From a virus, in the IMG/VR virus record IMGVR_UViG_3300044949_001749, positions 1-31,381 of that record: 31,381 nt of DNA; one strand, given 5' to 3'. The notes under the pieces are model-generated. The model was given only the letters and a program-made list of their open reading frames with translations. It searched no databases and was not told where the DNA came from. Below, piece after piece: positions 15,891-31,381 of this stretch. The translations under genes and the position numbers were made by a program. Each line of letters opens with the position of its first letter. Position 1 is the stretch's first letter.

Positions 15891-15898
15891 ATGTGTTT

Positions 15899-16633
15899 AT
15901 GTATTATGTCTACGCCCATTACAAAGCAGACGACCCCGACGGATTACCTTTCTATGTCGGCAAAGGTAAAAATCAAAGAGATCTGTCTCGGACTAGAAAT
16001 CAGTTTTGGAAAAATATTGTTAACAAACATGGTTTTGTGTCAAAGCGTCTACACGAAAATTTAACAGAACAAGAAGCATGGAATATCGAAACCGCGTTAA
16101 TTGAAGAATACGGAAAATTATCAGACGGCACTGGATGTCTATGTAATCTTTCCGATGGCGGGGAGGGGGCATCCGGAGTTATTCATAGTAAAGAAACAAA
16201 ACAAAAATGGTCTAACGCAAAAAAAGGAAAAACCTGGGAAGAAATCTATGGTGTTGAACAAGCAAATAAAATGCGAGAACAACGGAAAAAAGTCAAACGT
16301 GCTCATTCAGATGAAACACGGCAAAAAATATCGGCTTCAAAAAAAGGCGAAAATAATCCTATGTTTGCAAAAACTTTTTCAAAAGAACATAGAGAAAAAC
16401 TTTCTGAGTCCCGAACTGGTAAACCTAGTCCTACTAGAGGCATAAAACACAGCGAAGAAGCTAGACAAAACTATGCAAAAGCTGCTAAACTACGTGCTTC
16501 AAGAACAGACATTTACGAAAAAGTTTCTTCGAAGTTAACTGGTATTAAACGATCCGAAGAAACTAAAAAGAAAATGTCCGAAGCTGCAAAGGCTAGAGAA
16601 GCACTCAAAAAACTTAACAAAGGAAATATATGA
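15899..16633 (+). CDS. GIY-YIG homing endonuclease with NUMOD3 repeats
   Basis: A 244-residue protein from the ATG favoured by AGGAG. Residues 1-85 are a GIY-YIG nuclease: YVYAHYK, FYVGKGK (18-24), RDLSRTRN (27-34) and ETALIEEYG (64-72), whose Glu is the expected metal ligand. Residues 92-240 carry about five NUMOD3-like DNA-binding repeats of the form HSxETxxKxSxxKKGK, as in phage T4 Seg proteins. Such enzymes cut related phage genomes and spread by repair. The gene is visibly richer in A and T, and in Lys codons AAA, than its neighbours, which fits recent arrival. Its stop overlaps the dsbA start (ATGA), so insertion kept dsbA translation coupled. Confidence 0.92.
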   Translation: MYYVYAHYKADDPDGLPFYVGKGKNQRDLSRTRNQFWKNIVNKHGFVSKRLHENLTEQEAWNIETALIEEYGKLSDGTGCLCNLSDGGEGASGVIHSKETKQKWSNAKKGKTWEEIYGVEQANKMREQRKKVKRAHSDETRQKISASKKGENNPMFAKTFSKEHREKLSESRTGKPSPTRGIKHSEEARQNYAKAAKLRASRTDIYEKVSSKLTGIKRSEETKKKMSEAAKAREALKKLNKGNI

Positions 16634-16887
16634 CTAAAACATTTAACGGCGATCAAAAAATTAAGTTGACGGCGATTGTCAATGAAGGTTGTCAAGTAAT
16701 GCACGAAATTGATACCCTGCAAGGTGGGTTAAACGATACCATCAAGGCCGTAGCCGAAGAGCTGGAAGTCAAGCCGGCTATTCTCAAGAAAGCCATCAAA
16801 CTGGCACACAAGGCCGAATTTGGCAAAGAAAAGCAAGATCACGAAACCCTAGAAACCATTCTGGAAACTGTGGGCAAAACACTGTAA
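16630..16887 (+). CDS. dsbA: DsbA-like double-stranded DNA-binding protein
   Basis: An 85-residue protein, close to the 89 residues of T4 DsbA, a small dsDNA-binding protein linked to late transcription. The N-terminus ([20 protein letters not shown]) and the helical C-terminal half ([23 protein letters not shown]) match my memory of the T4-like family, which forms a mostly helical dimer. The ribosome site AAAGGAA lies inside the end of the homing-endonuclease gene. The ATGA overlap means its translation may depend on that selfish gene. It is followed by clpP after 8 bases. Confidence 0.75.
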
Positions 16888-16895
16888 GGATCAAC

Positions 16896-17489
16896 ATGGC
16901 ATTAGTTCCAATGGTGCTGGAGCAAACCAGCAAAGGTGAGCGTAGCTACGATATCTACAGTCGACTTCTTCGCGATCGTGTGATCTTGCTGGAAGGCGAA
17001 GTGCATGATCAAATGGCCAATCTCATTGTGGCTCAGCTGCTGTTTCTTGAAAGCGAAGATCCCGAAAAAGATATCTACATGTATATCAACTCGCCCGGTG
17101 GATCAGTTACAGCAGGCATGGCTATTTACGATACCATGCAGTTTATCCGCCCCGATGTGCAGACCATTGTGATGGGTCAAGCTTGCTCCATGGGATCGCT
17201 GCTGGCACAGGCAGGTGCTGCGGGCAAACGCAAAATGCTGCCCAATGCTCGACACATGATTCACCAGCCCAGTGGTGGTGCTCGTGGCATGCAAAGTGAC
17301 ATTGAAATCAGTTACAAGGAAATCACTTACCTGAAAAAACGTCTGACTGAGATCTATGTTCAGCACAACAGTGCCAACAAGACCTTTGAAGATCTTGAAC
17401 GTGATATGGATCGTGACAAATACATGAGCGCGGAAGAAGCATTAAATTACGGTCTAGTGGATCAGATCATAACTAAACGTGAAGTTTAA
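16896..17489 (+). CDS. clpP: ClpP-type serine protease
   Basis: A 197-residue protein, full length for ClpP. The N-terminus [20 protein letters not shown] is the typical ClpP start. The catalytic triad is intact: S98 in GQACSMGS, H123 in [10 protein letters not shown], and Asp in the ERDMDRD stretch (D174 by alignment with E. coli and B. subtilis). The oxyanion loop NSPGGS (65-70) is present. ClpP forms a tetradecameric chamber fed by an ATPase; no Clp ATPase gene is in the window, so it probably borrows the host's, or serves in proteolytic takeover or virion maturation. AGGA lies 5 bases before the ATG. It sits between dsbA and the DNA polymerase gene. Confidence 0.93.
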
Positions 17490-17551
17490 CTTTGCCGGCT
17501 CGCCCACGACACGGGCATGTATCAAGGCCTTCCGGCCATAAACGGAGAACA
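17490..17551 (+). promoter_or_regulatory. DNA polymerase leader with two small hairpins
   Basis: The 62-base gap before the polymerase ATG holds GCCC-loop-GGGC (17502-17516) and GGCC TTCC GGCC (17526-17537), the second lying 6 bases before the ribosome site GGAGAA (17544). T4 gp43 represses its own translation by binding a hairpin just upstream of its ribosome site, so this may be an analogous operator. The loop sequence does not match the T4 operator. Confidence 0.35.
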
Positions 17552-20215
17552 ATGAGTTACGTAGACGCATTATTTGATCGCGAGCACGATCGCATTCATG
17601 TTGTAGAACGCAAGAACGGCGTTCGCATATACCAAGAGTTCCCGGCGAACTATGTTTTCTACTACGACGATGCTCGTGGTAAATTTCAAAGCATCTATGG
17701 CACGCCCGTTTCAAGGTTTTCTACGCGGAATAACAAAGAGTTCCGCAAGGAAATCCGTATTCAAAGCGGCAAACAACTCTATGAATCAGACATCAACCCT
17801 ATTTTCAGATGTCTGGAAGAAAACTTCAAAGGTGCCGATGCACCCCGACTACACACAGCATTTTTCGACATTGAGGTCGACTTTGATCCAGAAAAGGGTT
17901 ACAGTCGACCCGAAGATCCGTTTAACAAGATTACTGCAATCTCTGTTTACTTAGACTGGTTAGGACAATTAGTTACACTGGCAATTCCACCTCGTCACAT
18001 GAGCATGGAAACTGCACAAGAGATTGCGGCAGAGTTCGAAAACTGTTTGCTATTCGATCACGAAGAAGACATGCTGAAAATGTTCCTGGATCTAATCGAA
18101 GATGCTGACGCACTATCCGGTTGGAACTCAGAAGGTTTCGATATTCCATACACTGTTATGCGTATCACTCGTGTGTTGAGCAAGGACGACACACGCAGAT
18201 TCTGCTTGTGGGGACAATTGCCCAAGCAACGCATGTTTGAACGTTTTGGTGCAGAGAACCTAACATTTGACCTTGTGGGTCGTGTGCATATGGACTATAT
18301 GCAACTGTATCGCAAATACACATACGAAGAACGTCACAGTTACTCATTGGACGCCATTGGCGAATATGAACTAGACGAACGCAAGACCCAGTTTGAAGGC
18401 ACACTGGATCAACTTTACAATCAGAACTTCAAGACATTCCTTGACTATAACCGTCAAGATACTTTGTTGTTGGCCAAGCTAGACAAAAAACTAAAGTTTT
18501 TAGACTTGGCCAATACACTGGCACATGAAAACACAGTGTTGCTACAGACCACCATGGGTGCTGTGGCTGTGACTGAGCAGGCTATTATCAACGAAGCCCA
18601 CGAACGTGGCATGGTAGTTCCCAACCGTAAAGAAAGACTCACAGATGAAGACACGCAAGCCGCAGGTGCCTATGTTGCTTATCCCAAAAAAGGCATCCAC
18701 GAATACATCGGCTCCATCGACATTAACTCGCTCTACCCCTCAGCGATCCGTGCTCTTAACATGGGCCCCGAAACAATCGTTGGGCAACTCCGATTAACAA
18801 TGACCGACAGGCTCATCAAAGATCGAATGGAAAATCAAAAGATGAGCTTTGCTGCTGCCTGGGAAGGTTTGTTTGCCACGTTGGAATATACCGCTGTAAT
18901 GGAACAGCAACGTGGCACAGAAATTACCATCGACTGGCAAGGTGGGGAAGAAACTGTGCACAGTGCCGCCGAAGTGTGGCACATGATTTTCGATTCCAAT
19001 CAACCTTGGGTGTTGAGTGCCAATGGAACAATCTTCACATATGAACGCGAAGGAATTATTCCTGGATTGCTGAAACGTTGGTATGCTGAACGCAAAGAGA
19101 TGCAGGCCAAGCTCAAGCAATGTGAGACCAAAGAAGATGAAGAATACTGGGACAAACGACAACTGGTTAAGAAAATTAACCTTAACTCACTATATGGCGC
19201 CATCCTTAACCCGGGTTGTAGATTCTTTGACAAGCGTATTGGTCAATCAACCACTCTTACTGGGCGTAGCATCGCGAAACACATGGATGCGTATGTCAAC
19301 GAATGCATTACCGGCAAATATGATCATGTTGGTGAAACAATCATCTACGGTGATACCGATTCGTGCTATTTCTCAGCCTGGCCCGTCCTTAAGAAAGAAG
19401 TGGAAGAAGGACGCATGGCGTGGAGCAAAGAAACTGCTATCCAATTATATGATTCAATCGCAGAGCAAGTTAACATCAGCTTTCCAGGCTTTATGGAGCA
19501 GGCCTTCCATTGTCCAAGGGAAATGGGCTCAGTAATCAAGGGTGGGCGTGAAGTAGTAGCAAGCAAAGGTTTGTTCATTACCAAGAAGCGTTATGCTGTG
19601 ATGATTGTGGACAAAGAAGGCAAGCGTGTAGACGTCGAAGGCAAGCCGGGCAAAGTAAAGGCCATGGGCTTGGATCTGAAGCGCAGTGATACACCCAAGG
19701 TTATTCAAGATTTTCTAAGCGAACTACTGCACGATGTGTTAACGGGTGGGCAAAAGGATGATGTCGTTGAAAAAGTCCGTGAGTTCAAGTATGCATTCAA
19801 AGAACGCCCAGGCTGGGAAAAAGGTTCGCCAAAGCGTGTGAACAATTTGACCAAGTATGGTGCTGAAGAACAACGTCTAGGCAAAGCCAACATGCCCGGA
19901 CATGTTCGAGCAGCGCTGAATTGGAACACTCTGCGCCGAATGAATTCGGACAACTACTCAATGCAGATTGTGGATGGTATGAAAACCATTGTATGCAAAC
20001 TCAAAGATAATCCACTGGGTTGGACCAGTATTGGCTATCCCACAGATGAACTGCATTTGCCGCAATGGTTCAAAGAACTTCCATTTGATGATGGTGCCAT
20101 GGAGGCCACGGTGATCGACGGCAAGGTTGATAACTTGCTGGGCGTATTAGATTGGGATATTGCATCTGCAACCAATACAGATAATACATTTACATCTTTG
20201 TTTGACTTCCAATGA
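17552..20215 (+). CDS. 43: Family-B replicative DNA polymerase (T4 gp43 type)
   Basis: An 887-residue protein from the ATG behind GGAGAA; the reading frame continues upstream by 20 codons with no ribosome site there. The 3'-5' exonuclease motifs are intact: FFDIEVD (D106, E108), GWNSEGFDIPY (N192, D197) and YNRQDT (Y299, D303). Polymerase motifs are DINSLYPS (D390), the motif-B run K541xxxNSxYG549, and YGDTDS (D601, D603), so both activities should work. The last residues FTSLFDFQ resemble the C-terminal clamp-binding peptide of T4/RB69 gp43, which fits the clamp gene about 1 kb downstream. It matches T4 gp43 (898 aa) in length and layout, with no intein or intron. The stop overlaps the next start by ATGA. 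Confidence 0.97.
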   Translation: MSYVDALFDREHDRIHVVERKNGVRIYQEFPANYVFYYDDARGKFQSIYGTPVSRFSTRNNKEFRKEIRIQSGKQLYESDINPIFRCLEENFKGADAPRLHTAFFDIEVDFDPEKGYSRPEDPFNKITAISVYLDWLGQLVTLAIPPRHMSMETAQEIAAEFENCLLFDHEEDMLKMFLDLIEDADALSGWNSEGFDIPYTVMRITRVLSKDDTRRFCLWGQLPKQRMFERFGAENLTFDLVGRVHMDYMQLYRKYTYEERHSYSLDAIGEYELDERKTQFEGTLDQLYNQNFKTFLDYNRQDTLLLAKLDKKLKFLDLANTLAHENTVLLQTTMGAVAVTEQAIINEAHERGMVVPNRKERLTDEDTQAAGAYVAYPKKGIHEYIGSIDINSLYPSAIRALNMGPETIVGQLRLTMTDRLIKDRMENQKMSFAAAWEGLFATLEYTAVMEQQRGTEITIDWQGGEETVHSAAEVWHMIFDSNQPWVLSANGTIFTYEREGIIPGLLKRWYAERKEMQAKLKQCETKEDEEYWDKRQLVKKINLNSLYGAILNPGCRFFDKRIGQSTTLTGRSIAKHMDAYVNECITGKYDHVGETIIYGDTDSCYFSAWPVLKKEVEEGRMAWSKETAIQLYDSIAEQVNISFPGFMEQAFHCPREMGSVIKGGREVVASKGLFITKKRYAVMIVDKEGKRVDVEGKPGKVKAMGLDLKRSDTPKVIQDFLSELLHDVLTGGQKDDVVEKVREFKYAFKERPGWEKGSPKRVNNLTKYGAEEQRLGKANMPGHVRAALNWNTLRRMNSDNYSMQIVDGMKTIVCKLKDNPLGWTSIGYPTDELHLPQWFKELPFDDGAMEATVIDGKVDNLLGVLDWDIASATNTDNTFTSLFDFQ

Positions 20216-21165
20216 AACTTAGCGAACTTGTTGCTTATCGAAATCAACTCAGTCGTCTCAATATCGACGAAGCAAAATCTCGCACGGATATTGATTTAGG
20301 AAAGATCAAACACCTAGTTAACGGCAAAGATTTTGATCCCAACAATATCAAAAGACTGATGCAGAGCAAACACAATGAGATTCAAGAAAAATTTCAAGAG
20401 TTTGTTGATCTCGTCAATATGGCCATTGAAGAAGCGCAACAACACATTGATATCAAAGAGCAATACTGGCTAGAAGAAACTTATAGACTTTACAGCCAAG
20501 AAATGGTCGACGATAGCGTTGAGCACATACTCAATCGCCGACAAATACTTGGTGATGAACATAACAATGTCATCCGAGCCAGAATTAGAAATTTCAGTAA
20601 CAATCAGTATCCTGCCATGATCATTAGACCTGGACTTGAAACTTTTGTCAATGACATGGTCAGTTTTGATCCTTTATATCTTGTGGACCAAGACCAGGAA
20701 CTATTGTTTCCTTCGATATTGCAGTTTCCCGAACAGTATCAACGACGATTGAGACCTTATGTTGTCGATGAAAGAGATGAATCATTGCCTATACTAGCTC
20801 AACTGCCTGATAATCAATTTGGCATGTGTTTGGCTTATAATTTTTTTAATTTTAAACCTTTGGCTGTGATCGAAAAATGGTTGGGAGAACTCTATACCAA
20901 GCTTCGCCCCGGCGGTCGGTTGATGATGACATTCAACGACTGCGACAACGAAAAAGCAGTGAAACTGGCTGAAAACTATTATGCATGTTACACACCCAGC
21001 CGAATGGTTCGGGATATTGCACTAAAGCACGGTTACGAAATTTATTTTGTTTGGAATGATAATTTACCCAGCACATGGATGGAGCTACAGAAACCCGGAA
21101 GCCTATCATCACTGCGCGGTGGCCAAGCATTGGCAAGAGCCATACCTTATCCTGAAAAAAATTAA
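20212..21165 (+). CDS. Methyltransferase-like protein with degenerate SAM site
   Basis: A 317-residue protein. Residues 40-115 are helical and probably coiled. Residues 134-280 look like a class-I methyltransferase: AMIIRPGLE (135-143, where motif I should be, but without GxGxG), LYLVDQD (155-161, acidic end of motif II), FGMCLAYNFFNF (203-214, motif IV region) and LYTKLRPGGRLMMTF (227-241, the usual motif VI loop). The lost glycine loop suggests it may no longer bind SAM normally or acts as a scaffold. It is tied by ATGA to the polymerase and precedes the clamp, so a replication-associated role is possible. The substrate is unknown. Confidence 0.65.
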   Translation: MKLSELVAYRNQLSRLNIDEAKSRTDIDLGKIKHLVNGKDFDPNNIKRLMQSKHNEIQEKFQEFVDLVNMAIEEAQQHIDIKEQYWLEETYRLYSQEMVDDSVEHILNRRQILGDEHNNVIRARIRNFSNNQYPAMIIRPGLETFVNDMVSFDPLYLVDQDQELLFPSILQFPEQYQRRLRPYVVDERDESLPILAQLPDNQFGMCLAYNFFNFKPLAVIEKWLGELYTKLRPGGRLMMTFNDCDNEKAVKLAENYYACYTPSRMVRDIALKHGYEIYFVWNDNLPSTWMELQKPGSLSSLRGGQALARAIPYPEKN

Positions 21166-21175
21166 TCAAAATCAC

Positions 21176-21204
21176 TTGAAAAATCTAAATAGATCTTGTA
21201 AACT
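21176..21204 (+). promoter_or_regulatory. Candidate host-type promoter for the clamp gene
   Basis: TTGAAA (21176-21181) and TAAACT (21199-21204) are 17 bases apart. The -35 box is good and the -10 box is weak. They sit in the 57-base gap before the clamp gene, which has a strong AGGAGA ribosome site (21212-21217). TCTAAATA (21184-21191) in the same gap could instead serve as a late-promoter core. Confidence 0.45.
21183..21194 (+). repeat. Inverted repeat ATCTA-AA-TAGAT inside the clamp promoter spacer
   Basis: A perfect 5-bp inverted repeat with a 2-base centre lies between the -35 and -10 boxes. Its size and place fit a dimeric repressor site, and it also contains the CTAAATA string. No regulator gene is visible nearby. 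Confidence 0.4.
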
Positions 21205-21222
21205 AACACATAGGAGAATACA

Positions 21223-21948
21223 ATGAGAGATCATCTACTTGACTTAGTAAGTCACACATACGACCTTGGCTGCATTGACTTGGTCAAAATTATCGGTGAC
21301 GATGCTACCACAGTAATCAACGGCTTGGCCGAAGATCGCAGTGTGGTCATCGAAGGACAGTTTGCAGGCCCTGTGCCAGAATTCATGGGCACGTTTGGCA
21401 TGCCCAATCTAAACAAACTAAAAATTCTTTTGAACTTGCAAGAATATCGAGAAAATTCCAAGTTAAGCATTACCAAGCGAGCAGCTGATAATCAACCCGA
21501 TGGCATCAATTTTGAAAATGCCTCAGGCGATTTTAAAAACAACTATCGTTTTATGGCTGCAGAGATCATCAACGAAAAACTCAAAACTGTGAAGTTCAAA
21601 GGAGTGAACTGGCATATTGAATTTGAGCCCAGCGCAGCAGCTATCATGAGACTCAAGATGCAGGCTCAGGCCAATGCAGAAGAAACTGTGTTTCAGGCTC
21701 GCACCGAAGGCAGTGATCTAAAATTCATGTTCGGTGATCACTCTACTCACTCAGGCAGTTTTGTGTTTGAAGCAGGAGTAAAGGGTCAACTCAAACGTGC
21801 CTGGTCCTGGCCTGTGAGCACTGTTATTTCTATCTTGAGTTTGACTGGAGACAAGGTTATGAAAATCAGCGACGACGGCGCTGCTATGATTACTGTGAAT
21901 TCCGGTGTTGCCACCTACAACTATATTCTGCCTGCACAGAGCAAATGA
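21223..21948 (+). CDS. 45: Sliding clamp (T4 gp45 type)
   Basis: A 241-residue protein, close to T4 gp45 (228 aa). It has the beta-rich two-domain pattern of a clamp subunit: MGTFGMPNLNKLKILLNLQE, then a central domain with FKNNYRFMAAEI and a C-terminal PVSTVISILSLTGDKVMKI strand-helix pattern. Three subunits form a ring that tethers the polymerase and, in T4, activates late transcription. The polymerase here carries a matching C-terminal peptide. The gene has its own candidate promoter and a strong ribosome site. The clamp-loader genes 44 and 62 are not in the window. The stop overlaps the sulfotransferase start by ATGA. Confidence 0.88.
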   Translation: MRDHLLDLVSHTYDLGCIDLVKIIGDDATTVINGLAEDRSVVIEGQFAGPVPEFMGTFGMPNLNKLKILLNLQEYRENSKLSITKRAADNQPDGINFENASGDFKNNYRFMAAEIINEKLKTVKFKGVNWHIEFEPSAAAIMRLKMQAQANAEETVFQARTEGSDLKFMFGDHSTHSGSFVFEAGVKGQLKRAWSWPVSTVISILSLTGDKVMKISDDGAAMITVNSGVATYNYILPAQSK

Positions 21949-22628
21949 ACCCGGCATTAAAAGATCGAGGCTATGGAGAGTTTTCAGGACTATTAAGTCC
22001 TGGTAAAACCAAATTCATAGTTAACATTCCCAAAAATGCCAGTAGCTATATTCACAACTGGGCAAAAGAATACGGATGGTTAACTACAGCTTTGATCAAC
22101 GATGACTGGAATGCTGTGAATCAAATCACAGTTGTTCTAAGAGATCCAGTAGAGCGCTGGATCAGCGGCATGGCACAATACTTGAAAACTTATGTGCTAT
22201 GCCCCGTGGGAGTCAATGGACCGATATACCCTGATTCGCCTCGGGCTTATCATGCGGGAAACAATCCTTTGTCTGCACAAGAATTTATTGATCTTTACAA
22301 TCTGTCAACAGAGAGATTGATATTTGATAACGTATACAGATTCGACGATCATGTTTGGCCGCAGTATGCATTTTTTTACAATCTTCGTCCATATGCAGAA
22401 AGAAAATATTTTTTTCTAGATCAAAATTTTGATAAAAATTTTTCGCCCTACGTCGGTGGCTTGCCTATCCCTGACTTAGATCGCAATGAAGGTGCAGCAG
22501 ATCCCAATACAAAAACTCTTCAGATGTTTTTGAAAAACTTGCTAGACAGTCGACCTGATCTATTGGATCGAGTCAAAGATGCATACAAAGAAGATTATGC
22601 TTTAATTAAACAAGCATTTAATAAATGA
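21945..22628 (+). CDS. Sulfotransferase-family protein (PAPS-binding motifs)
   Basis: A 227-residue protein with the two PAPS-contact motifs of the sulfotransferase-2 type family: IPKNASSYIH (28-37), equivalent to the 5'-phosphosulfate loop PKxxSSS, and VLRDPVERWISG (64-75), equivalent to the 3'-phosphate motif RDPxxRxxS. The C-terminal half is helical. Such enzymes move sulfate from PAPS to sugars, peptides or small molecules. The acceptor is not readable here. ATGA overlaps tie it to the clamp upstream and to the TGT/DpdA-like gene downstream, so its product may be needed together with the DNA-modification enzymes. A tail- or surface-glycan sulfation role is the main alternative. Confidence 0.8.
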   Translation: MNPALKDRGYGEFSGLLSPGKTKFIVNIPKNASSYIHNWAKEYGWLTTALINDDWNAVNQITVVLRDPVERWISGMAQYLKTYVLCPVGVNGPIYPDSPRAYHAGNNPLSAQEFIDLYNLSTERLIFDNVYRFDDHVWPQYAFFYNLRPYAERKYFFLDQNFDKNFSPYVGGLPIPDLDRNEGAADPNTKTLQMFLKNLLDSRPDLLDRVKDAYKEDYALIKQAFNK

Positions 22629-24208
22629 CACAAGACAATCTAACTGCCAAACAAAACGACTATGCTGTGTTTCTCCCGGCTATCTCTGGCTTCTACGCCA
22701 CATTCATAGGCAAACAACGCAATGAACCTTATGTGGATCCCGCCAGATTTCCTCAGGGTCTCTCGGATATGGAACAGCTTAATTGGCTTAACTCCACAAA
22801 GGCCCTATTTCCCTATCAGTGGTCACTCTACTCAGGAGGACATGCTAATCTGGATCTGGCAAAGCAGGATTGGTCAGAGGACATGGTACGAAATCGGGAG
22901 CCTGGGACTTTTATACTGGGGGACTCGGGCGGCTTTCAGATTGCTAAGGGACTTTGGGAAGGCGACTGGAAAGCTAACAGTGGTTGTGTAAAGGCTCAAA
23001 AGAAAAGAAGTTTAATTCTTAACTGGTTGGACAATGTGGCTGACTATGGTATGATCTTGGATATTCCCACCTGGGTTATTCACGATAAAAAAGCATCCGA
23101 AGCCTGTGGTATTTCGACATTGGAAGAAGCTGTGGCAGCTACCAAGTTTAACAATGAATACTTCATGACCCACCGTCGAGGCAAGAACAACGGTGGTGCC
23201 CGGTTTCTAAACGTGCTGCAAGGCGATAATCACACGTCGGCCGAAGCATGGTATCAAGAGATGAAACAATTTTGCGATCCCACAGTCTACCCCGACACGC
23301 ATTTTGACGGGTGGGCCATGGGAGGACAAAACATGTGTGATGTGCATCTGGTCCTCAAACGACTAGTGGCACTGCGCTATGATAACTTGCTGCAAGAAGG
23401 TGTGCATGATTGGATGCACTTCCTGGGAACCAGCAAGCTAGAGTGGGCAGTTCTCTTAACTGTTATTCAACGTGCCGTAAGGAAATATGTCAACCCAAAC
23501 TTTACCATCTCTTTTGACTGCGCATCCCCATTCCTCGCAACAGCAAATGGACAAGTCTACTTCGAAAATGTGTTCCCACAAGACGGCAAGTGGTCGTATC
23601 GCATGGCTCCTTCAGCCGATGACAAAAAATATGCCACAGACACACGGCCCTGGGCACAAGGTGTAGTTGCAGACGGTATCTATCCTACATGGCAAGATTC
23701 TCCCATCAGCAACATGCTGACAATGAAGGATATCTGCATTTACCGACCAGGTGATCTAAATAAGATTGGCAAGGAAGGTTCCACCAGTTGGGATAGTTTT
23801 AGCTATGCTCTGCTCATGGGCCACAATGTCTACATGCATTTGACTGCTGTGCAAGAAGCCAACAGACGTTTTGATGCAGGCGAGCATCCGGCCATGATGA
23901 GATTTTCGGGCACCAAAGGACGATTGGGTGACTTTTCTTACTTTGAAGATATTGTAGAGCAGATCTTTGCTGCGCCCGATCGATCAACGTCTGAGCAGAT
24001 AATCGACAAATACAGTCGATACTGGATGGACATTGTGGGCACACGTGGATTCAAAGGTGACAAAACCGTGAATGCACGAACACAGTTCAACAGTTTGTTC
24101 GATGTGGTTGATCAATCTACATCTGCTGTTGTAAACTCTGACCATACAGAAGATTTCTCAGCCGACGAAATAGACAATCTAAATAAACTCGAACATGAAC
24201 AGACCTGA
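22625..24208 (+). CDS. dpdA: TGT/DpdA-like guanine transglycosylase
   Basis: A 527-residue protein with the tRNA-guanine transglycosylase signature: ILGDSGGFQIAKG (catalytic D100), ILDIP (D146), LQG (199-200), WAMGG (230-234), MHFLGTS (264-270) and SFDCASPFLATANG (nucleophile D298). In TGT enzymes the D298-type Asp attacks the glycosidic bond and swaps guanine for a 7-deazaguanine. The CxCxxC zinc site of bacterial TGT is absent after residue 300, as in divergent, phage-borne DpdA proteins that act on DNA. GTP cyclohydrolase I and a QueD-like gene nearby support a 7-deazaguanine route. The C-terminal 150 residues are outside the shared core. It could instead modify tRNA. Confidence 0.8.
   Translation: MTQDNLTAKQNDYAVFLPAISGFYATFIGKQRNEPYVDPARFPQGLSDMEQLNWLNSTKALFPYQWSLYSGGHANLDLAKQDWSEDMVRNREPGTFILGDSGGFQIAKGLWEGDWKANSGCVKAQKKRSLILNWLDNVADYGMILDIPTWVIHDKKASEACGISTLEEAVAATKFNNEYFMTHRRGKNNGGARFLNVLQGDNHTSAEAWYQEMKQFCDPTVYPDTHFDGWAMGGQNMCDVHLVLKRLVALRYDNLLQEGVHDWMHFLGTSKLEWAVLLTVIQRAVRKYVNPNFTISFDCASPFLATANGQVYFENVFPQDGKWSYRMAPSADDKKYATDTRPWAQGVVADGIYPTWQDSPISNMLTMKDICIYRPGDLNKIGKEGSTSWDSFSYALLMGHNVYMHLTAVQEANRRFDAGEHPAMMRFSGTKGRLGDFSYFEDIVEQIFAAPDRSTSEQIIDKYSRYWMDIVGTRGFKGDKTVNARTQFNSLFDVVDQSTSAVVNSDHTEDFSADEIDNLNKLEHEQT
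24178..24185 (+). promoter_or_regulatory. Late-promoter-like TCTAAATA inside the end of the dpdA-like gene
   Basis: TCTAAATA lies 9 bases before the ATG at 24195, within the last codons of the previous gene. Similar strings also occur deep inside genes (for example near 23755 and 28630), so this one has weak standing. Confidence 0.2.
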
Positions 24209-24713
24209 ACACGACAACATTGACTTTTTTACTGGTAAAGAAGTAGAACATACGCCTGCGTTTGGAAAACAAACTTTGTTTGTTGTGGGGGTGCATTCCG
24301 TCGACCGGATTCACCAATATATAGATAACAACCCATTCGGCATTGAGCATATCTATTTCGGTGCCAATCAAAGTTTTCCCAATCTCAAAGTCAACGATGG
24401 TGGCGAATGGGCTCGATGGGAACACATGATCTATCATTTTCTTGACAAGGATTTTTGGTGCACTCTGGATGTTGACATTGCTTGTGTGGAAGGACTAACA
24501 GAATCGGGCATGTGCGAGCGTCACAAGTTTATTCCAATGATTTCGGCCAAATTGCCCTATTTACAACAGCTGGGGTATAATGCTACAATCAAGATCGACG
24601 ACAAAGATTTTCAAGCAACCAATCCCGGTGTATGGTGCCATTCGGTTCAATCGTTGATTAAGCGCCGCGTGTTCACGCCCTGGGATCATTATACCAAAGA
24701 TCAACCGCTATGA
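24195..24713 (+). CDS. Conserved-looking protein in the modification block
   Basis: A 172-residue soluble protein. Notable segments are NIDFFTGKEVEHTPAFGKQT (residues 8-27), IEHIYFGANQSFPN, CTLDVDIACVEG, FIPMISAKLPYLQQLGY and IKIDDKDFQATNPGVW. The alternating strands and the acidic DVD suggest an alpha/beta fold, but I cannot assign a family. Radical-SAM QueE is ruled out by the lack of a CxxxCxxC motif. It overlaps the dpdA-like gene by 14 bases and the next gene by ATGA, and I recall similar proteins beside 7-deazaguanine genes in marine phages, so a role in base modification is a reasonable guess. Confidence 0.7.
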   Translation: MNRPEHDNIDFFTGKEVEHTPAFGKQTLFVVGVHSVDRIHQYIDNNPFGIEHIYFGANQSFPNLKVNDGGEWARWEHMIYHFLDKDFWCTLDVDIACVEGLTESGMCERHKFIPMISAKLPYLQQLGYNATIKIDDKDFQATNPGVWCHSVQSLIKRRVFTPWDHYTKDQPL

Positions 24714-24979
24714 TTACAAAATTAAAAAGACGATTTGCGTATTGGCTAATCGATGAAGATGTTCCGACTGTCGAAGTCGGCCGGGAAGACAGAGTGCTAG
24801 AGTCAAACTACATTAGAATTGATGTATATCGAGGCGACGGCGGACTTGCAGTTGAAACTTCGGTATACAACAAAAAGAAAGACACCAATTACATTGGATT
24901 CCATATCTTGCACGACGACAAAGATCTCGGAAATGCACTCAGCAAAATTATCACAGTAGAAAGTATCAAAGCACTATGA
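24710..24979 (+). CDS. Small beta-rich protein, function unknown
   Basis: An 89-residue protein with a basic N-terminal helix (ITKLKRRFAYWL) followed by beta strands (NYIRIDVYRGDGGLAVETSVY; NYIGFHILHDDKDLG) and a final helix (ALSKIITVESIKAL). It looks like a single compact domain with acidic loops. No motif identifies it. It is coupled by ATGA to both the 172-aa protein and the QueD-like gene, which places it inside the modification block. Confidence 0.65.
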   Translation: MITKLKRRFAYWLIDEDVPTVEVGREDRVLESNYIRIDVYRGDGGLAVETSVYNKKKDTNYIGFHILHDDKDLGNALSKIITVESIKAL

Positions 24980-25419
24980 TTCAAGCAGAACGCGAACAAA
25001 TCGAAAGAATCAAACAACACGCAGAGCGAAAAATCTGGGTCACATTCCGCAAAGAAGGTATCCATCGCTATCCCGCAGCAGCCACAGACCCGACCTTGGC
25101 CACAGGTGATGAGTATGATGTTAGCTTTCTTGGTGTTCCACATCGCCATATCTTCCACTTTTGTGTGTGGATCGATGTGCTGCACAATGACCGCGACATT
25201 GAATTCATTCAGTTCAAGCGTTGGTTAGAAAATCTTTATCGAAATGGCACACTGCAACTCGACTACAAATCTTGCGAAATGATGGCAGATGATCTCTACC
25301 TTCAGATTGCATCACGCTATCCTGACCGTGCGGTCTGGATCGAGGTCGCCGAAGATGGTGAAAACGGCGCACTCATCAAATATGAAACTCACCGACCTGT
25401 TCAATCTGTTAATATCTAA
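24976..25419 (+). CDS. QueD-like T-fold protein (6-pyruvoyl-tetrahydropterin synthase type)
   Basis: A 147-residue protein. H30 (KEGIHRYPAA), H56 and H58 (VPHRHIFHF) match the three-His zinc site of 6-pyruvoyl-tetrahydropterin synthase/QueD, though the usual HGH is HRH here. EFIQFKRWLENL corresponds to the DFxxLK helix. SCEMMADDLYLQI with WIEVAEDGENGALIKYE matches the final helix and the strand with the pterin-anchoring Glu. QueD makes carboxy-tetrahydropterin from the FolE product, the second step to 7-deazaguanines. The first His motif differs from the usual FxAAHxL, so another T-fold enzyme is possible. It is coupled by ATGA to the 89-aa gene. Confidence 0.55.
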   Translation: MIQAEREQIERIKQHAERKIWVTFRKEGIHRYPAAATDPTLATGDEYDVSFLGVPHRHIFHFCVWIDVLHNDRDIEFIQFKRWLENLYRNGTLQLDYKSCEMMADDLYLQIASRYPDRAVWIEVAEDGENGALIKYETHRPVQSVNI

Positions 25420-25431
25420 TAGGAAACTAAA

Positions 25432-25653
25432 ATGTCTAAACCCGCAATCAAACCCAATCCCAAAGTTGCTCAAATTCTAGAGGATCTTGATCGATTCCGA
25501 GAGTTTGTGATAGAATACGGTTATAGGTTCAACGAAGCGGATCTGTATAACTTCAAGAGTTATGCATGGCAACAATACAGCAAATTTACTTCAGGTAAAA
25601 GTGCCAAAAACATGTGGGACGAAGATCTCCGTCGTCTTGCTACCAAGTATTGA
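25432..25653 (+). CDS. Small helical protein, function unknown
   Basis: A 73-residue, mostly helical and highly charged protein (NPKVAQILEDLDRFREFVIE; FNEADLYNFKSYAWQQY). It has an AGGAA ribosome site (about 25421-25425) before the ATG. There is no membrane segment, leader or catalytic motif. I recall similar short proteins in T4-like marine phages without an assigned role. It is followed after 3 bases by the next gene. Confidence 0.65.
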   Translation: MSKPAIKPNPKVAQILEDLDRFREFVIEYGYRFNEADLYNFKSYAWQQYSKFTSGKSAKNMWDEDLRRLATKY

Positions 25654-25656
25654 TTT

Positions 25657-26088
25657 ATGAGTGAATCAAGAAAAAAAGATCAAGCGGACTTTGATCTAGA
25701 ACGCTTCGTTGACATGTTTGATGAAGCCGCAACCAGTTCTGATCCACGTGTGGTCAATGCACTACGCAGTCTCCTGATGATTGTGACACTGACACGTTCC
25801 GAGAGCCTCGTCAATGGTTTGCACGATCGAAATGCAGGACCATTGAGAAGATTATACGAAGAGGTGGGTCACCTAAATAGACGACTGCATCGCGTAGAGG
25901 ATGAGTTCCGTCAGTCTCGGGCTCAAAATTATTCAAACGATGCCAAGTATCCCAATGAAAAGTATTATACTATTCAATCTGCGGCGGAAATGAGTCAGAA
26001 AGTTGATCAAGATGTGTTGAATCAACTAAAACAAAATGCCGTGAATGCGATCGCCGGTGGCGCAATACAAGGACTTTACGACAAATGA
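25657..26088 (+). CDS. Helical protein with central coiled coil, function unknown
   Basis: A 143-residue protein. Residues 10-55 are helical (FDLERFVDMFDEAATSSDP then VVNALRSLLMIVTL), and residues 65-90 form a basic coiled-coil-like helix (LRRLYEEVGHLNRRLHRVED). The C-terminus is helical with a short Gly/Ala stretch (AVNAIAGGAIQGLY). No enzymatic signature is seen. The stop overlaps the glycosyltransferase start by ATGA, so it is translated with the sugar genes, though nothing shows it acts on sugars. Confidence 0.65.
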   Translation: MSESRKKDQADFDLERFVDMFDEAATSSDPRVVNALRSLLMIVTLTRSESLVNGLHDRNAGPLRRLYEEVGHLNRRLHRVEDEFRQSRAQNYSNDAKYPNEKYYTIQSAAEMSQKVDQDVLNQLKQNAVNAIAGGAIQGLYDK

Positions 26089-27278
26089 GAAAACTATTCT
26101 ACATGGGCTTGGAAAGTTACGAAGCCCGCTACACACTACAACTAACTGAATGGAATCGCCGTGTGTTTGAGCGCCGTGGACTGGATGTTGTCTACGTGCA
26201 CGGCAATACCATCGACAACAGCCAAGCTATCTCAGTGGGGCAGGTGCTGGATGCACACGGGCGCAGCTACTTTTCTATGAGCCAAATGATGAACTTGGTT
26301 CAAATGATGAAGAACGGCAAAGTCACTGGCGACGATGTGATCTATTTCGAAGACATGTTCCAGCCTGGATTCGAAAGCCTTGGTTACATCATGAATCAGA
26401 TTCCTCGCGAACAGTGTCCACGTATCTATGTTCGTTGTCTAGCACAAGCCATTGACCCTGATGACTTTGTGCATGTGTGGGGCATGGCTCGATGGATGGA
26501 TCTCTATGAACAAATGGTCAATGAAATGGTGGTTTTCTCGGGGGGTGCAGTATTGGCTACCAACGAGGAAATGGTCGCGCACATGCGCATTGCTGGATGG
26601 ACTGCTCCGATCTACAACATTTCCGGCCTTGCATTTGGAAAAACAGAAGTTCTTGGCCGTATTGGCGGGAAAGAAAACATCCGGTCGTTTGATAGCCGTC
26701 CGCGGAGGGTGGGTTTCGCAGCTCGGTTCGATCAAGAGAAACAACCTGGCTTTTTCATGGATCTTATTGAAATGTATCAGCGGTGGGCCAGTGAGCCATG
26801 TGAATTTGCAATATTCAGTGGAGGACCTCTCCGAAGCAACAATCCAGAGTATATTGAACGTGCCCGCCGTATGGAGGCGGAGGGGAAAATCAAGATTTAT
26901 GATAACTTGAAGAAAGATAGTTATTATGCTCTCCTTAACGATACTCGTGTGTTGTTTAATTGTGCTCTACAAGACTGGGTATCTAACACTGTATCCGAAG
27001 CAGATACTCTGGGATGTAACGTGTTGTATCCTGCTTATCGCAGTTTCCCTGAAAGTTTTGCAAATGACTCTGATAGGCTTTACATTCCCTGGAGTCTAGA
27101 AGATGCCTATGACAAGCTTCAGCCTCTGCTGAATGCACCACATAAACGCATGGGCAAGCTCAGTGACTGGACTGACGGAACTGTGGACCGTGTAGTTGAT
27201 ATCATTACCGGGCAAGGCGAACAGTGGAACAGGGCAGGCAATAGATATCGCGATCATGTTGCTGGAGCAAAGTATTAA
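26085..27278 (+). CDS. GT-B glycosyltransferase (GT4-like)
   Basis: A 397-residue protein with a GT-B layout. The N-terminal domain (1-190) includes VIYFEDMFQPG and a linker. The C-terminal domain opens with RRVGFAARFDQEKQPGFF (207-224), where R214 and K219 match the donor-phosphate residues of GT4 enzymes, and EFAIFSGGP (240-248) follows. SNTVSEADTLGCNVL (300-314) carries the GT4-type acidic residue (E305) that binds the donor sugar, then SLEDAYDKL. GalE and an aminotransferase directly downstream suggest a UDP-sugar donor. The acceptor could be modified DNA, a virion protein or a surface glycan. It starts by ATGA overlap with the preceding gene. Confidence 0.85.
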   Translation: MRKLFYMGLESYEARYTLQLTEWNRRVFERRGLDVVYVHGNTIDNSQAISVGQVLDAHGRSYFSMSQMMNLVQMMKNGKVTGDDVIYFEDMFQPGFESLGYIMNQIPREQCPRIYVRCLAQAIDPDDFVHVWGMARWMDLYEQMVNEMVVFSGGAVLATNEEMVAHMRIAGWTAPIYNISGLAFGKTEVLGRIGGKENIRSFDSRPRRVGFAARFDQEKQPGFFMDLIEMYQRWASEPCEFAIFSGGPLRSNNPEYIERARRMEAEGKIKIYDNLKKDSYYALLNDTRVLFNCALQDWVSNTVSEADTLGCNVLYPAYRSFPESFANDSDRLYIPWSLEDAYDKLQPLLNAPHKRMGKLSDWTDGTVDRVVDIITGQGEQWNRAGNRYRDHVAGAKY

Positions 27279-28226
27279 ATGGCAACAGTTATTGTAACCG
27301 GAAGTGCAGGTTACATTGGGGGGCAAACTGCCCTCCAACTTCGTGACCTCGGGCATGCAGTTTACGGTATTGACCGTAGAAAATCTCCTCAACATCTTGC
27401 CGAAGTTTGCAACGGATTTTTACATCAAGACTTTGCATCAGATATGGCATTGAGTTGGATTATCGGCAAACAACCCGATGCCATTATTCATTGTGCTGGA
27501 ACAAGTCTTGTTGGACCTAGCATGACTGATCCCGGCGAATACTACAACAATAATGTGGCAAAGACATTGAAACTGTTAGACGTTGTCAAGCGAGCATTAC
27601 CGAGAACTCGAATTATTTTTAGTTCCAGTGCCGCAACCTACGGCGAACCGACTATGATTCCGATCAGTGAGACTGAACCCACTGATCCAGTCAGTCCATA
27701 CGGCGAAAGTAAACTGATGATTGATATGATGCTTAACAGCTATCATCGTGCTTATGCTACTAACTTTGTGAGTTTTAGATACTTCAATGCCTGCGGTGCA
27801 GACCCCCAAGGTCGTCACGGTCAAGAACCTGGTGCCACACACATCATTGGACGAGTGTTAGAAAGCATCAGGGACAGTCAGGAGTTTACACTGTATGGCA
27901 ACGATTACGATACATGCGACGGAACTTGTGTTCGGGATTATGTGCATGTGGCTGATATTGCACAGGCACACATATTGGCCTTGTCTCCGTCAATTCCTGC
28001 AGGCATCTATAACCTTGGATCAAATCAAGGAACCAGCAATCGAGAAATAATCGCCACTGCTGAACGTATTACTGGTCAAACAGTTAAAATCAAACAAGGG
28101 CCCAGACGCCAAGGTGATCCGGATGCCTTGGTGGCCGACTCCAGCAAGTTCAATCAACTGGTGCGTTGGCAACGTTTCAATTTAGACGACATGATTCAGC
28201 ACGCATGGAATTGGTATGTTCGATAA
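27279..28226 (+). CDS. galE: UDP-glucose 4-epimerase family enzyme
   Basis: A 315-residue extended short-chain dehydrogenase. The NAD loop is GSAGYIG (G8-x-x-G11-x-x-G14). The catalytic triad is present: S116/S117 in IIFSSSAATYG, with Y141 and K145 in SPYGESK. The substrate domain has RYFNACGADPQGRHG and VRDYVHVADIA, typical of GalE. GalE interconverts UDP-glucose and UDP-galactose (or the N-acetyl forms). It is slightly shorter than most (about 330-340). It begins right after the glycosyltransferase stop and overlaps the aminotransferase by 11 bases, so the three form one sugar module. Confidence 0.9.
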   Translation: MATVIVTGSAGYIGGQTALQLRDLGHAVYGIDRRKSPQHLAEVCNGFLHQDFASDMALSWIIGKQPDAIIHCAGTSLVGPSMTDPGEYYNNNVAKTLKLLDVVKRALPRTRIIFSSSAATYGEPTMIPISETEPTDPVSPYGESKLMIDMMLNSYHRAYATNFVSFRYFNACGADPQGRHGQEPGATHIIGRVLESIRDSQEFTLYGNDYDTCDGTCVRDYVHVADIAQAHILALSPSIPAGIYNLGSNQGTSNREIIATAERITGQTVKIKQGPRRQGDPDALVADSSKFNQLVRWQRFNLDDMIQHAWNWYVR

Positions 28227-28803
28227 GATCTTAAAATTTGAACAAGAACTAGCAGAGTTTACTGGTGCACCTTATGTTGTCATGACTGACTGCTGCACTC
28301 ACGCCATTGAACTGTGTTTGCGGCATGATCGTGTGCAAGAACTGGTGATGACTCCCTACAGCTATTTGAGCATTCCCATGACCATGCACAAGCTGGGTAT
28401 TCGTTACTATTTTCGAGAAGAAGAGTGGATTGGAGAATATCAATTTCACGGCACAAGAATTTGGGATAGTGCTCGGCGACTTGAGCCCAATATGTATCGA
28501 GCTGGACAAATGCAATGTTTGAGTTTTGGGCATGACAAGCCTTTACACATAGGCCGCGGGGGTGCTATACTGTTAGACAACGAACAGACATATCGCAGAC
28601 TAATTCGTATGCGATATGATGGACGAGATCTAAATATATCGCCCTGGGTGGCACAACAGGAATTTGAAGTTGGATATCATTACAAACCCACACCCGAAGA
28701 AGCTGTGCAAGGACTTGCACTGCTACAAGGGTTACGCGAGTTTTGTCCTCCACCACGACCAGTTGCTTATCCAGATTTAAGAACTATCACTATTAGAGAT
28801 TAA
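28216..28803 (+). CDS. Very short DegT-type aminotransferase homologue
   Basis: A 195-residue protein, about half the usual 370 or so of the DegT/DnrJ/EryC1 family. Kept features are FTGAPYVVMTDCCTHAIEL (the N-terminal PLP-phosphate region), MTPYSYLSIPMT, WDSARRL with D84 (PLP pyridine contact) and CLSFGHDKPLHIGRGGAIL with K108, the expected PLP lysine. The small C-terminal domain is missing or reduced to about 60 residues. It may be a minimal aminotransferase or a dehydratase-like PLP enzyme acting on the nucleotide sugar made by the epimerase. There is no sign of a frameshift in the region, so it looks deliberately short rather than broken. Confidence 0.75.
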   Translation: MFDKILKFEQELAEFTGAPYVVMTDCCTHAIELCLRHDRVQELVMTPYSYLSIPMTMHKLGIRYYFREEEWIGEYQFHGTRIWDSARRLEPNMYRAGQMQCLSFGHDKPLHIGRGGAILLDNEQTYRRLIRMRYDGRDLNISPWVAQQEFEVGYHYKPTPEEAVQGLALLQGLREFCPPPRPVAYPDLRTITIRD

Positions 28804-28805
28804 CA

Positions 28806-29507
28806 ATGACCGACAACAGTTTGAACCTATCACAAGTAATTCGTAAACGTATTCAACGCGAAGGCGGCCGATTCTGGGCCGGTGACAACATCAGTCAGTG
28901 GATCACCGACAAAGAAAAAGACTTGCTAGTGGACGAACTCACTGGCAAATTTGAAGGTGTGCTGGACAGTTTGATCATTGATCGACAAACAGATCCTAAT
29001 TCTGTGGGAACAGCTCGACGTTTAGCAAAGATGTATGTGTATGAAATCATGGCAGGCAGGTATGAGGAGAGTCCCAATGCTACGGCATTTCCAAATGACA
29101 CAGACGGGAAATATGAAGGTATGTTGGTTGTGCGAAGCGAGCTTAAGAGCATGTGCTCGCATCATCACCAACCTGTGTCGGGTGTGGCTTACATTGGAAT
29201 CATTGCTGGGCCTAAACTCATTGGACTATCAAAATACACACGTATTGCACAATGGTGTGCTCGACGGGGAACTCTCCAAGAAGAACTATGTATGGATATT
29301 GCAAGAGAAATCGAAGCGGCAACTGGCTCCCGGGACGTTGCGGTTTATATCCAAGCTACCCACGGATGTTGTGAGAACCGTGGTATTATGGCACACTCTA
29401 GCCTCACCCAAACCACAGTTTTACACGGTGCATTCAAAACTGATCCGGGCGTGAAAAAAGAGTTTTTTGACAATATCAAACTGCAACAGGACTTTGCTCC
29501 CCGTTGA
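28806..29507 (+). CDS. folE: GTP cyclohydrolase I
   Basis: A 233-residue protein with the FolE core intact. Zinc ligands are C117 and H120 in SMCSHHHQP and C188 in ATHGCCENRG. Substrate-site motifs are LIGLSKYTRIAQWCARR and ATGSRDVAVYIQATHG. It turns GTP into dihydroneopterin triphosphate, the entry to both folate and 7-deazaguanine synthesis. In phages with DpdA it usually supplies the 7-deazaguanine pathway. Here the dpdA-like and QueD-like genes lie 4-6 kb upstream in the same direction; QueC and QueE are not in the window. It starts 2 bases after the aminotransferase stop. Confidence 0.95.
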   Translation: MTDNSLNLSQVIRKRIQREGGRFWAGDNISQWITDKEKDLLVDELTGKFEGVLDSLIIDRQTDPNSVGTARRLAKMYVYEIMAGRYEESPNATAFPNDTDGKYEGMLVVRSELKSMCSHHHQPVSGVAYIGIIAGPKLIGLSKYTRIAQWCARRGTLQEELCMDIAREIEAATGSRDVAVYIQATHGCCENRGIMAHSSLTQTTVLHGAFKTDPGVKKEFFDNIKLQQDFAPR

Positions 29508-29538: not shown

Positions 29539-29565
29539 GAGTGCATGAAATACTTTGCACTCATT
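29536..29565 (+). repeat. Perfect 10-bp inverted repeat over promoter and start codon
   Basis: AATGAGTGCA (29536-29545), a 10-base loop, then TGCACTCATT (29556-29565). The left arm covers the end of the -10 box and the expected start site, and the right arm lies in the first codons. As DNA it fits a repressor site that would block polymerase. As RNA from upstream read-through it would hide the start codon in a hairpin. Confidence 0.7.
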
Positions 29566-31381
29566 CTGTTTACTTTAGTATTATCTGGCTGCGGTGGCGG
29601 CGGAGGAAGTAGCGGCTCCCTACTTCTTCGCGATGTTCCGTTTTATACACCAACCGGTATAAATCACTACAGCCCCCTGGTGACGTCGGTTTATGTAACT
29701 CCATCTACAGAAATATTCACAAAAGATCTAAACAACGACAGCGTGGACGAAGTTGTTGTTTCATCTGTGGCTTTTAACAGTCAATACACCACAGGCGGGT
29801 GGAAGGACTCAAAACTTCAAATTTACGGGTTCAATTCAGGTTCGTTTAAAAACGAAACTTCAACATGGATGCCCGGAACAGACAGTCAATATCTTGGCGG
29901 CACCACTGTTAGATTTGGTGATTTCAACGGTGATGGCAAAATTGACGTATTTGCCGCAACATTTTCGGACACAAACATCCATTCATCCATGCCTGTGTTT
30001 ATTAACAATGGCAACAACAGGTTTACAAGAACCAACATAGACTTTGGTAATGTTGGTGCCCATGACAGCATAGTGGTGGATCTTAACCGAGACGGTTATG
30101 CAGACATTGTGGTCACAGACATTGTTAATCAAAAGCCAGCTGTGGCATTTGGATCCAGCACAGGAAACTTCACTGTGTATCGCAGTGATACATTCGGTGG
30201 CGGCGCCGGCATCAGTGTTGCAGACTATTTGGGCAATGGCACACAAACTATAGTGCTGACTGATGCTCCAACAAGCGATAGTGGCAGCAACGACACAAAA
30301 TTATTTTCATGGAGCGTGTCCAACGGAAAATTAGTTTTGACAAAAATTGCAGATCTTCCGCCGGATCGTTTTAGTTTATCCAAGTGGTCCAGTGTTGTTT
30401 CACAATCTACTGTTGAGCCGCATGCAGTCCGTAACATCACTATGGACTTTGACAACGACGGCCGACCTGATGTTGTTGTGTTCAGCACCATGCCAAAAAA
30501 CGGAAACACACATGGTTACAGTGAAGTTCAATTTCTTAAAAACAACGGCGGCGGCAGTTTTACCGATGTCACTGACAGTGTTTTAGTCAACTACAACACC
30601 AATAAAACTACCACTTACAATCCACAACTGATCGATGTCAACAACGACGGGTTGGTTGACATTTTGATTTCAGCAACAGACTATACCGGGCAAGCATCTA
30701 CGTCGGTGCTGTTGGCAACCAAGGAAGGCAAATTTGTAGAGAGCTACACACAGGTTTTCTCAGATTTTGCAAATCAAACCAAGTCAATGAGTGCTAGTGC
30801 TGTGCAAAATCAATCTATTACTATTGTGGCTGGACCCAATGGCAAACGGTATCTAATGACCGGAGTGGAAACAACTGACAGCAGTGGTGTTCCGCAAATT
30901 GCTGTTTATCTCAGTTTGATTGGTTCCACAGGAACAGTGACTGCACCAGCCACAGTGGCAGTTATTCAACAGGCCTGGCCCTGGATGAGCGCAGCCGAAG
31001 CCAACGAAGCTCTAGCAAAAAGTATTGTGAGCTGGGTGGATGGTATGCCGGTATTGGATCTTAAATCGGTCATGAACCCCATTGGATCTTTGACAATTTC
31101 TCTTACAGGACGCACAGGAACACGCATACCAATTGCAGGATCTCTCAGTGTGCCCGGACTTGACAGTGCACTGCTCACTAACATTCAAGCGGTTGATTCT
31201 TTGAATCGTAATTTTTCCGTAAATGTGGCTGGCATGGCTCTCAAGCCACTGGGCATTCCTATTAGGTATAATTTATACACCGCCGATGTTACACAAAATT
31301 GGAGCAGTCGTTTTACCAACATTGAAAATCACAGTCACAATGGCATGGATACCAGTGGCGATGGGCAGTCGGCATATGCAC
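29545..31381 (+). CDS. VCBS/FG-GAP-repeat lipoprotein (3' end outside window)
   Basis: An open frame of at least 612 codons, with no stop before the window end. The N-terminus MKYFALILFTLVLSGCGGGG is a lipoprotein signal with lipobox LSGC (Cys16), so the mature protein should be anchored to a membrane, most likely the outer membrane. Five DxDxDG-like calcium loops of the FG-GAP/VCBS type follow: DLNNDSVDE (61-69), DFNGDGKID (126-134), DLNRDGYAD (179-187), DFDNDGRPD (301-309) and DVNNDGLVD (364-372), as in beta-propellers. Beyond about 430 the sequence is Ser/Thr/Gly-rich and unassigned. It has its own host-type promoter, unlike its neighbours. Possible roles are altering the host surface, blocking superinfection or adhesion. 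A captured host gene is also possible. Confidence 0.85.
   Translation, partial: MKYFALILFTLVLSGCGGGGGSSGSLLLRDVPFYTPTGINHYSPLVTSVYVTPSTEIFTKDLNNDSVDEVVVSSVAFNSQYTTGGWKDSKLQIYGFNSGSFKNETSTWMPGTDSQYLGGTTVRFGDFNGDGKIDVFAATFSDTNIHSSMPVFINNGNNRFTRTNIDFGNVGAHDSIVVDLNRDGYADIVVTDIVNQKPAVAFGSSTGNFTVYRSDTFGGGAGISVADYLGNGTQTIVLTDAPTSDSGSNDTKLFSWSVSNGKLVLTKIADLPPDRFSLSKWSSVVSQSTVEPHAVRNITMDFDNDGRPDVVVFSTMPKNGNTHGYSEVQFLKNNGGGSFTDVTDSVLVNYNTNKTTTYNPQLIDVNNDGLVDILISATDYTGQASTSVLLATKEGKFVESYTQVFSDFANQTKSMSASAVQNQSITIVAGPNGKRYLMTGVETTDSSGVPQIAVYLSLIGSTGTVTAPATVAVIQQAWPWMSAAEANEALAKSIVSWVDGMPVLDLKSVMNPIGSLTISLTGRTGTRIPIAGSLSVPGLDSALLTNIQAVDSLNRNFSVNVAGMALKPLGIPIRYNLYTADVTQNWSSRFTNIENHSHNGMDTSGDGQSAYA

Follow-up and report, generated by a model that had tools for sequence, protein, structure and literature searches.

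A conserved phage gene block proposed to glycosylate 7-deazaguanine in DNA

Gene content and conservation of the locus

The window analyzed here is the whole of the IMG/VR virus record IMGVR_UViG_3300044949_001749, a stretch of 31,381 b. Downstream of a DNA polymerase gene it carries a block that joins a putative transglycosylase and GTP cyclohydrolase I, both associated with 7-deazaguanine DNA modification, to a glycosyltransferase (GT), other sugar genes and a sulfotransferase. Judging from gene content, it is probable that the block makes a glycosylated 7-deazaguanine in the DNA of the phage itself. The genes on which this proposal draws are as follows.

17492..20215, + strand: family B DNA polymerase, upstream of the block (Pfam DNA_pol_B, 2e-38)
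21223..21948, + strand: sliding clamp of DNA polymerase, assigned by position and weak similarity
21945..22628, + strand: 3'-phosphoadenosine-5'-phosphosulfate (PAPS)-type sulfotransferase, accessory (Pfam Sulfotransfer_2, E=0.013; PHROG 3347, 3.5e-4)
22625..24208, + strand: transglycosylase of the TGT/DpdA fold, assigned by predicted fold and motifs
24195..24713, + strand: conserved 172-aa alpha/beta protein of the block, motif KIDDxDFxATNPGVW
24976..25419, + strand: QueD-like protein of T-fold type, assigned by profile comparison and three invariant zinc-type His
26085..27278, + strand: GT-B glycosyltransferase (Pfam Glyco_trans_1_2, 1.7e-3)
27279..28226, + strand: GalE, UDP-glucose 4-epimerase, nucleotide-sugar supply (TIGR01179 galE, 306 bits, cut-off 262)
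28216..28803, + strand: short DegT-family aminotransferase, lineage-specific (Pfam DegT_DnrJ_EryC1, 1.9e-14, above cut-off)
28806..29507, + strand: FolE, GTP cyclohydrolase I, the first pathway step (Pfam, 4.4e-38)

All genes from 17492 to 29507 are on the + strand and are separated by minimal gaps, the widest of which is the 57 b ahead of the clamp. From the clamp to FolE, intergenic distances range from -14 to +12 b. Direct inspection of the sequence revealed ATGA overlaps at many junctions, including clamp to sulfotransferase, sulfotransferase to transglycosylase and the entry into the GT. The coupling of sulfotransferase and transglycosylase that had been described in the original prediction was thereby seen directly, and the GT, GalE, the short aminotransferase and FolE were confirmed at their places and in one direction, with GalE, DegT and FolE also identified by family search. 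FolE is the only gene in the window for the route from GTP to 7-carboxy-7-deazaguanine (CDG), and no true QueD was found within the 31,381 b. The record ends about 1.9 kb past FolE, the gene that QueD and QueE follow in relatives, and this explains their absence here.

At least 600 stretches of viral contigs encode relatives of the transglycosylase, and the gene order is kept. Relatives were counted in two sets, one found through the transglycosylase (36 or 77 loci) and the other through the GT (73 loci, or 48 for downstream genes), with only those having enough flank counted; separate gene-by-gene counts of neighbors rest on 80 loci. The GT was within the block at all 36 loci of the first set, and the transglycosylase was near all 73 of the second. 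Likewise, the QueD-like protein (36/36 and 72/73), the 172-aa protein (36/36 and 66/73), GalE (36/36 and 70/73) and FolE (32/36 and 46/48) were nearly always present. The polymerase is upstream in nearly all of the 80 loci and in the Pseudomonas jumbo phage PA5oct. The clamp open reading frame (ORF) gave no match in the Pfam search; it is kept in 79 of the 80 loci and shares 34% identity with the ORF preceding the PA5oct transglycosylase. It can be seen that the conservation of the block is far beyond chance. No defense-system match was returned by PADLOC.

The transglycosylase and a pathway without QueC

The transglycosylase had no match in Pfam, PHROG or NCBIfam, and a PDB sequence search with it gave nothing useful. 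An AlphaFold model built from 49 homologues (predicted local distance difference test score 78.6) had 3 Foldseek matches in the PDB below E=1e-3, all of which were tRNA-guanine transglycosylases (TGT), and by this model the protein has the TGT fold. The motifs DSGGFQ, LDIP (with D146), QG, GG and FDC are invariant across the 49 homologues; QG, GG and FDC line up with E. coli TGT in a profile alignment, and DSGGFQ was matched by inspecting the E. coli protein. The profile scored 29.7 against E. coli TGT, compared to 14.7-21.5 for nine unrelated controls. Scores for phage 9g DpdA and nt-1 DpdA2 fell inside this control range, with no significant alignment, and by that test the protein therefore forms a separate subfamily. 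The TGT zinc site CxCxxC...H was not found: inspection showed one Cys (C371) in that stretch, and His400 is invariant. The protein was therefore not classed as a tRNA-TGT. Thus, the DpdA-like assignment of the original prediction holds for fold and catalytic motifs, but the protein is outside the curated models and lacks a significant profile match to the two reference enzymes.

The genomic context of a subfamily relative in Vibrio phage 2.275.O ties the subfamily to deazaguanine metabolism independently, as neighbors of that gene carry the annotations queuosine biosynthesis, 7-cyano-7-deazaguanine reductase (QueF-type), COG1738 transporter and FolE. From context, it is proposed that the enzyme replaces guanine in DNA by a 7-deazaguanine. 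In one relative (L148) the transglycosylase gene has been relocated directly ahead of FolE, with the sulfotransferase, GT and other members in the usual place. No DSGGF-type motif was present within the scanned stretches of Campylobacter phage CP81, and the enzyme of phage BUCT-ZZ01, considered as the same transglycosylase type, was ruled out as being DpdA2-like.

In longer relatives inspected gene by gene, QueD is downstream of FolE, and a QueE-type radical SAM enzyme of 280-290 aa adjoins QueD or is near it in those examined. QueD (PF01242) was found in 11 of 12 longer relatives and QueC in none of the 12. These relatives thus contain the genes for GTP to CDG, without the QueC step to preQ0. 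The original prediction had called for a search for both QueC and QueE: a QueE-type enzyme was located, but QueC is apparently replaced by the QueD-like protein.

Several peculiarities were observed among these pathway genes. The true QueD at L091:10336-10842, L093 (reverse complement) 10933-11436 and L104:15506-15973 has apparently lost 2 of its 3 zinc His (AAH changed to AYR or VFR, HGH to HGY), with the catalytic Cys and Asp-His kept. A 320-kb relative has three consecutive PP-loop (SGGxDS) ATPases between FolE and QueD (L094:14825-17402). Additionally, five relatives of 130-320 kb (G001-G005) have 10-15 radical SAM matches apiece.

The protein of 24976-25419 is most likely the QueD-like gene of the window. 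Its profile scored 25.7 against E. coli QueD in hhalign, compared to at most 17.0 for controls other than T-fold proteins. All 19 homologues compared, a diverse set, keep residues H30, H56 and H58; the first of these and the HxH pair align with the His of E. coli QueD. The catalytic residues of that enzyme (Cys27, Asp70-His71) were not found; an invariant Leu52 is at the Cys position and the DH pair is missing, and therefore the protein is not classed as QueD. The QueD-like enzyme of the original prediction accordingly retains the zinc His but not the catalytic residues of QueD, and 24195-24713, the ORF that directly follows the transglycosylase, does not resemble QueD: as a QueD candidate it had no PTPS match and no profile or fold match, and its PDB matches were artefacts of designed repeat proteins.

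Of the 19 phage genomes tested, 16 encode homologues of 24976-25419, and full-length QueC occurs in none of the 16, three of which have only partial, weak PF06508 matches. The three exceptions, nt-1, 9g and HCTV-1, possess full-length QueC and lack the homologue. This mutual exclusion suggests that the pathway probably branches at carboxydeazaguanine, and it therefore makes the protein the best candidate for an enzyme acting on CDG, possibly a decarboxylase. Its divergence correlates with that of the transglycosylase (r=0.52). Reportedly, Cui and colleagues proposed in 2023 that DpdL is the CDG decarboxylase of phages without QueC, in a pathway to deoxy-7-deazaguanine (dDG) and its 7-carboxy form (dCDG) with DpdA3. 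The QueD-like protein, likewise found in the company of deazaguanine genes but not of QueC, may be DpdL.

The glycosyltransferase and the accessory genes

The GT of the window alone scored 18.7 bits (cut-off 25), and a PDB sequence search with it gave nothing useful. Its homologue in BUCT-ZZ01, 64% identical, is above the Glyco_trans_1_4 and Glycos_transf_1 cut-offs, and through this homologue the profiles assign the protein to the GT-B/GT4 glycosyltransferases. GT homologues were found in five unrelated cultured phage lineages with deazaguanine genes, beside two transglycosylase types, in the following orders.

PA5oct: transglycosylase, GT, QueD-like, epimerase, QueE
Phosso: QueD-like, GT, FolE, QueE; transglycosylase at another site of the genome
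ACP17: FolE, 172-aa homologue, DpdA2, GT, QueD-like, QueE
Xanthomonas X1: FolE, GT, DpdA2-type, QueD-like, QueE
BUCT-ZZ01: GT, QueD-like, DpdA2-type, second GT, FolE, QueD, QueE

When the X1 GT was searched against 50,697 phage records, all 16 matches fell on these deazaguanine phages. Moreover, GT divergence tracks that of the transglycosylase (Mantel r=0.59). The linkage across independent lineages and two transglycosylase types therefore supports, at the sequence level, a glycosyltransferase dedicated to DNA that contains 7-deazaguanine.

The sulfotransferase scored 16.1 bits with Sulfotransfer_2 (cut-off 22), and it is identified as genuine by its motifs. In PKN..S (the 5'-phosphosulfate-binding site) and RDPxxRW (the 3'-phosphate-binding site), Lys30 and Arg71 are invariant and their neighbors near-invariant in 27 homologues, whose mean column identity is just 29%. 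Of the relatives, 33/77 and 10/73 carry it, in 37 cases immediately 5' of the transglycosylase. The cultured phages tested, PA5oct among them, gave no match to it. Its divergence is weakly correlated with that of the transglycosylase (r=0.11). The gene therefore looks like fast-changing, exchangeable cargo that is loosely coupled to the block, and its product may decorate the sugar. One relative (L138) has a divergent sulfotransferase copy right ahead of the GT.

DegT was found in 32/36 close relatives compared to 11/73 distant ones. A downstream phosphoribosyltransferase is frequent (39/48 in the GT-found set) and is also present in BUCT-ZZ01 and, by sequence, in PA5oct; speculatively, it might salvage the released guanine. 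Three small ORFs complete the block.

24710..24979, + strand: small ORF, ATGA-coupled at both ends, 12/80 loci, no family match
25432..25653, + strand: small ORF, 59/80 loci
25657..26088, + strand: small ORF, ATGA-coupled to the GT, 14/80 loci

Elsewhere in the window, 1337-5887 holds an ORF of 1,516 aa with putative amidoligase and M48 peptidase domains. Ahead of the polymerase (11891-17489) are a Dps/ferritin-like protein, a fatty acid desaturase, a GIY-YIG endonuclease-like ORF and ClpP. A likely lipoprotein with FG-GAP-like repeats (29545-31381) runs past the end of the record.

Proposed mechanism, competing explanations and significance

In the proposed mechanism, FolE, QueD and QueE would convert GTP to CDG. 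Without QueC, CDG would not proceed to preQ0, and the QueD-like protein would act on it, most likely stripping the carboxylate. The TGT-fold enzyme would then exchange guanine in newly replicated DNA for the product, and the GT-B enzyme would attach a sugar from the UDP-sugar pool supplied by GalE. Sulfation of the attached sugar by the sulfotransferase may follow in some lineages. The likely purpose would be shielding the DNA from host nucleases. A glycosylated 7-deazaguanine formed through such a QueC-independent branch, with its sugar also sulfated in some lineages, is a doubtful extension of the proposal. The original prediction had raised a glycosylated or sulfated 7-deazaguanine; linkage across lineages strongly supports the glycosyltransferase part, but sulfation, which is possible, is suggested at most.

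Several points weigh against a glycosylated 7-deazaguanine. The base offers no obvious hydroxyl as an acceptor, and CDG decarboxylation, if true, would require an unusual sugar bond. The QueD-like call has a modest profile score with a probability of 21%. Gene order conserved inside one phage clade could be plain inheritance, and many of the relatives are fragments; the homologous GT in other cultured lineages is the stronger evidence. A query with the PA5oct GT found 4 further records, 24% identical across a portion of the protein. In the only one of the 4 examined, Xanthomonas phage PhiXhv-12 (L210:6735-9969), the homologue belongs to an amino-sugar gene cluster, and no deazaguanine genes are annotated near it.

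It is also conceivable that the DNA contains plain 7-deazaguanine (dDG or dCDG) and that the GT, GalE, DegT and sulfotransferase are neighbors altering host surface or virion glycans, as the original prediction allowed. Such a role would fit the lineage-specific DegT, the variable sugar genes (short-chain dehydrogenase/reductase, UDP-sugar dehydrogenase, epimerase) between FolE and QueE in the relative L091, and phage phiST, which has the pathway with no match to this GT. Yet the GT equals the replication-linked genes in conservation, is never absent from the block given enough flank, and has homologues inside the deazaguanine clusters of five unrelated phages. This explanation is therefore considered unlikely for the GT and for the block as a whole, but it may hold for DegT and the sulfotransferase.

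Phage GT-B DNA glucosyltransferases of the T4 type use hydroxymethylcytosine, and thymidylate-synthase-type enzymes are what supplies T4 with a hydroxylated pyrimidine as acceptor. The GT might thus glycosylate such a base and merely share an operon with deazaguanine genes; however, 10 of the 13 genomes that carry the GT lack PF00303 (thymidylate synthase/dCMP hydroxymethylase), and the search with the X1 homologue found deazaguanine genes in every GT carrier. PF00303 is one route only to a hydroxylated base, a further caution against the proposed glycosylation of 7-deazaguanine. Another base as the target is nevertheless held to be very improbable. Equally little credence is given to a transglycosylase that acts on tRNA, with the block tuning host translation. 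By profile the enzyme is indeed nearer to E. coli TGT than to 9g DpdA or nt-1 DpdA2, but its gene adjoins those of polymerase and clamp, the arrangement of DpdA in phage 9g, the CxCxxC motif was not seen in the protein, and the relatives have no QueC.

Glycosylated 7-deazaguanine, the preferred reading, can be compared to known systems. Known phage 7-deazaguanines carry small groups. As in T4 glucosylated hydroxymethylcytosine, a phage GT would work post-replicatively on a DNA base that is already modified; the base and pathway differ, and thymidylate-synthase-type enzymes are mostly absent in the GT carriers here. The pathway of dDG, dCDG and DpdL is likewise QueC-less, and in phiST a 24976-25419 homologue accompanies FolE, QueD and QueE, but there is no match to the GT of the block. 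Modification of phage DNA with 7-deazaguanine by DpdA and DpdA2 is already known (Hutinet et al. 2019, PMC6884629). Both systems combine FolE, QueD and QueE with a TGT-fold transglycosylase in the vicinity of replication genes, and phage 9g shares the polymerase-clamp-DpdA-FolE neighborhood. Here, in contrast, QueC is missing and a QueD-like protein stands in for it; a dedicated GT-B and GalE are present, joined in some cases by a sulfotransferase. The deazaguanine system of PA5oct has been noted before, in a passage that makes no mention of a glycosyltransferase (PMC7824862). Its single cluster includes a homologous transglycosylase (33%), the QueD-like protein (56%), a GT, a short epimerase and QueE; unlike the present block, no sulfotransferase was found, no DegT was seen in the cluster, and the 172-aa protein is about 30 kb off.

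In the literature searched, coverage of which is incomplete, no report of glycosylated or sulfated deazaguanine DNA was found. As far as checked, the recurring dedicated GT family, the mutual exclusion of QueC and the QueD-like protein, the accessory sulfotransferase, and a transglycosylase subfamily that PA5oct has in common with a very large group of aquatic phages are new. The proposal is testable now in the cultured carriers PA5oct/Paride, ACP17, X1, Phosso and BUCT-ZZ01. If true, a GT family tied to the pathway would unite the deazaguanine and glycosylated-base classes of DNA hypermodification, and would lead one to ask whether there is a new glycosidic link and whether DNA is sulfated. 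Such a family would also account for many uncharacterised genes of abundant aquatic phages, and it may help to explain the restriction resistance of jumbo phages such as PA5oct.

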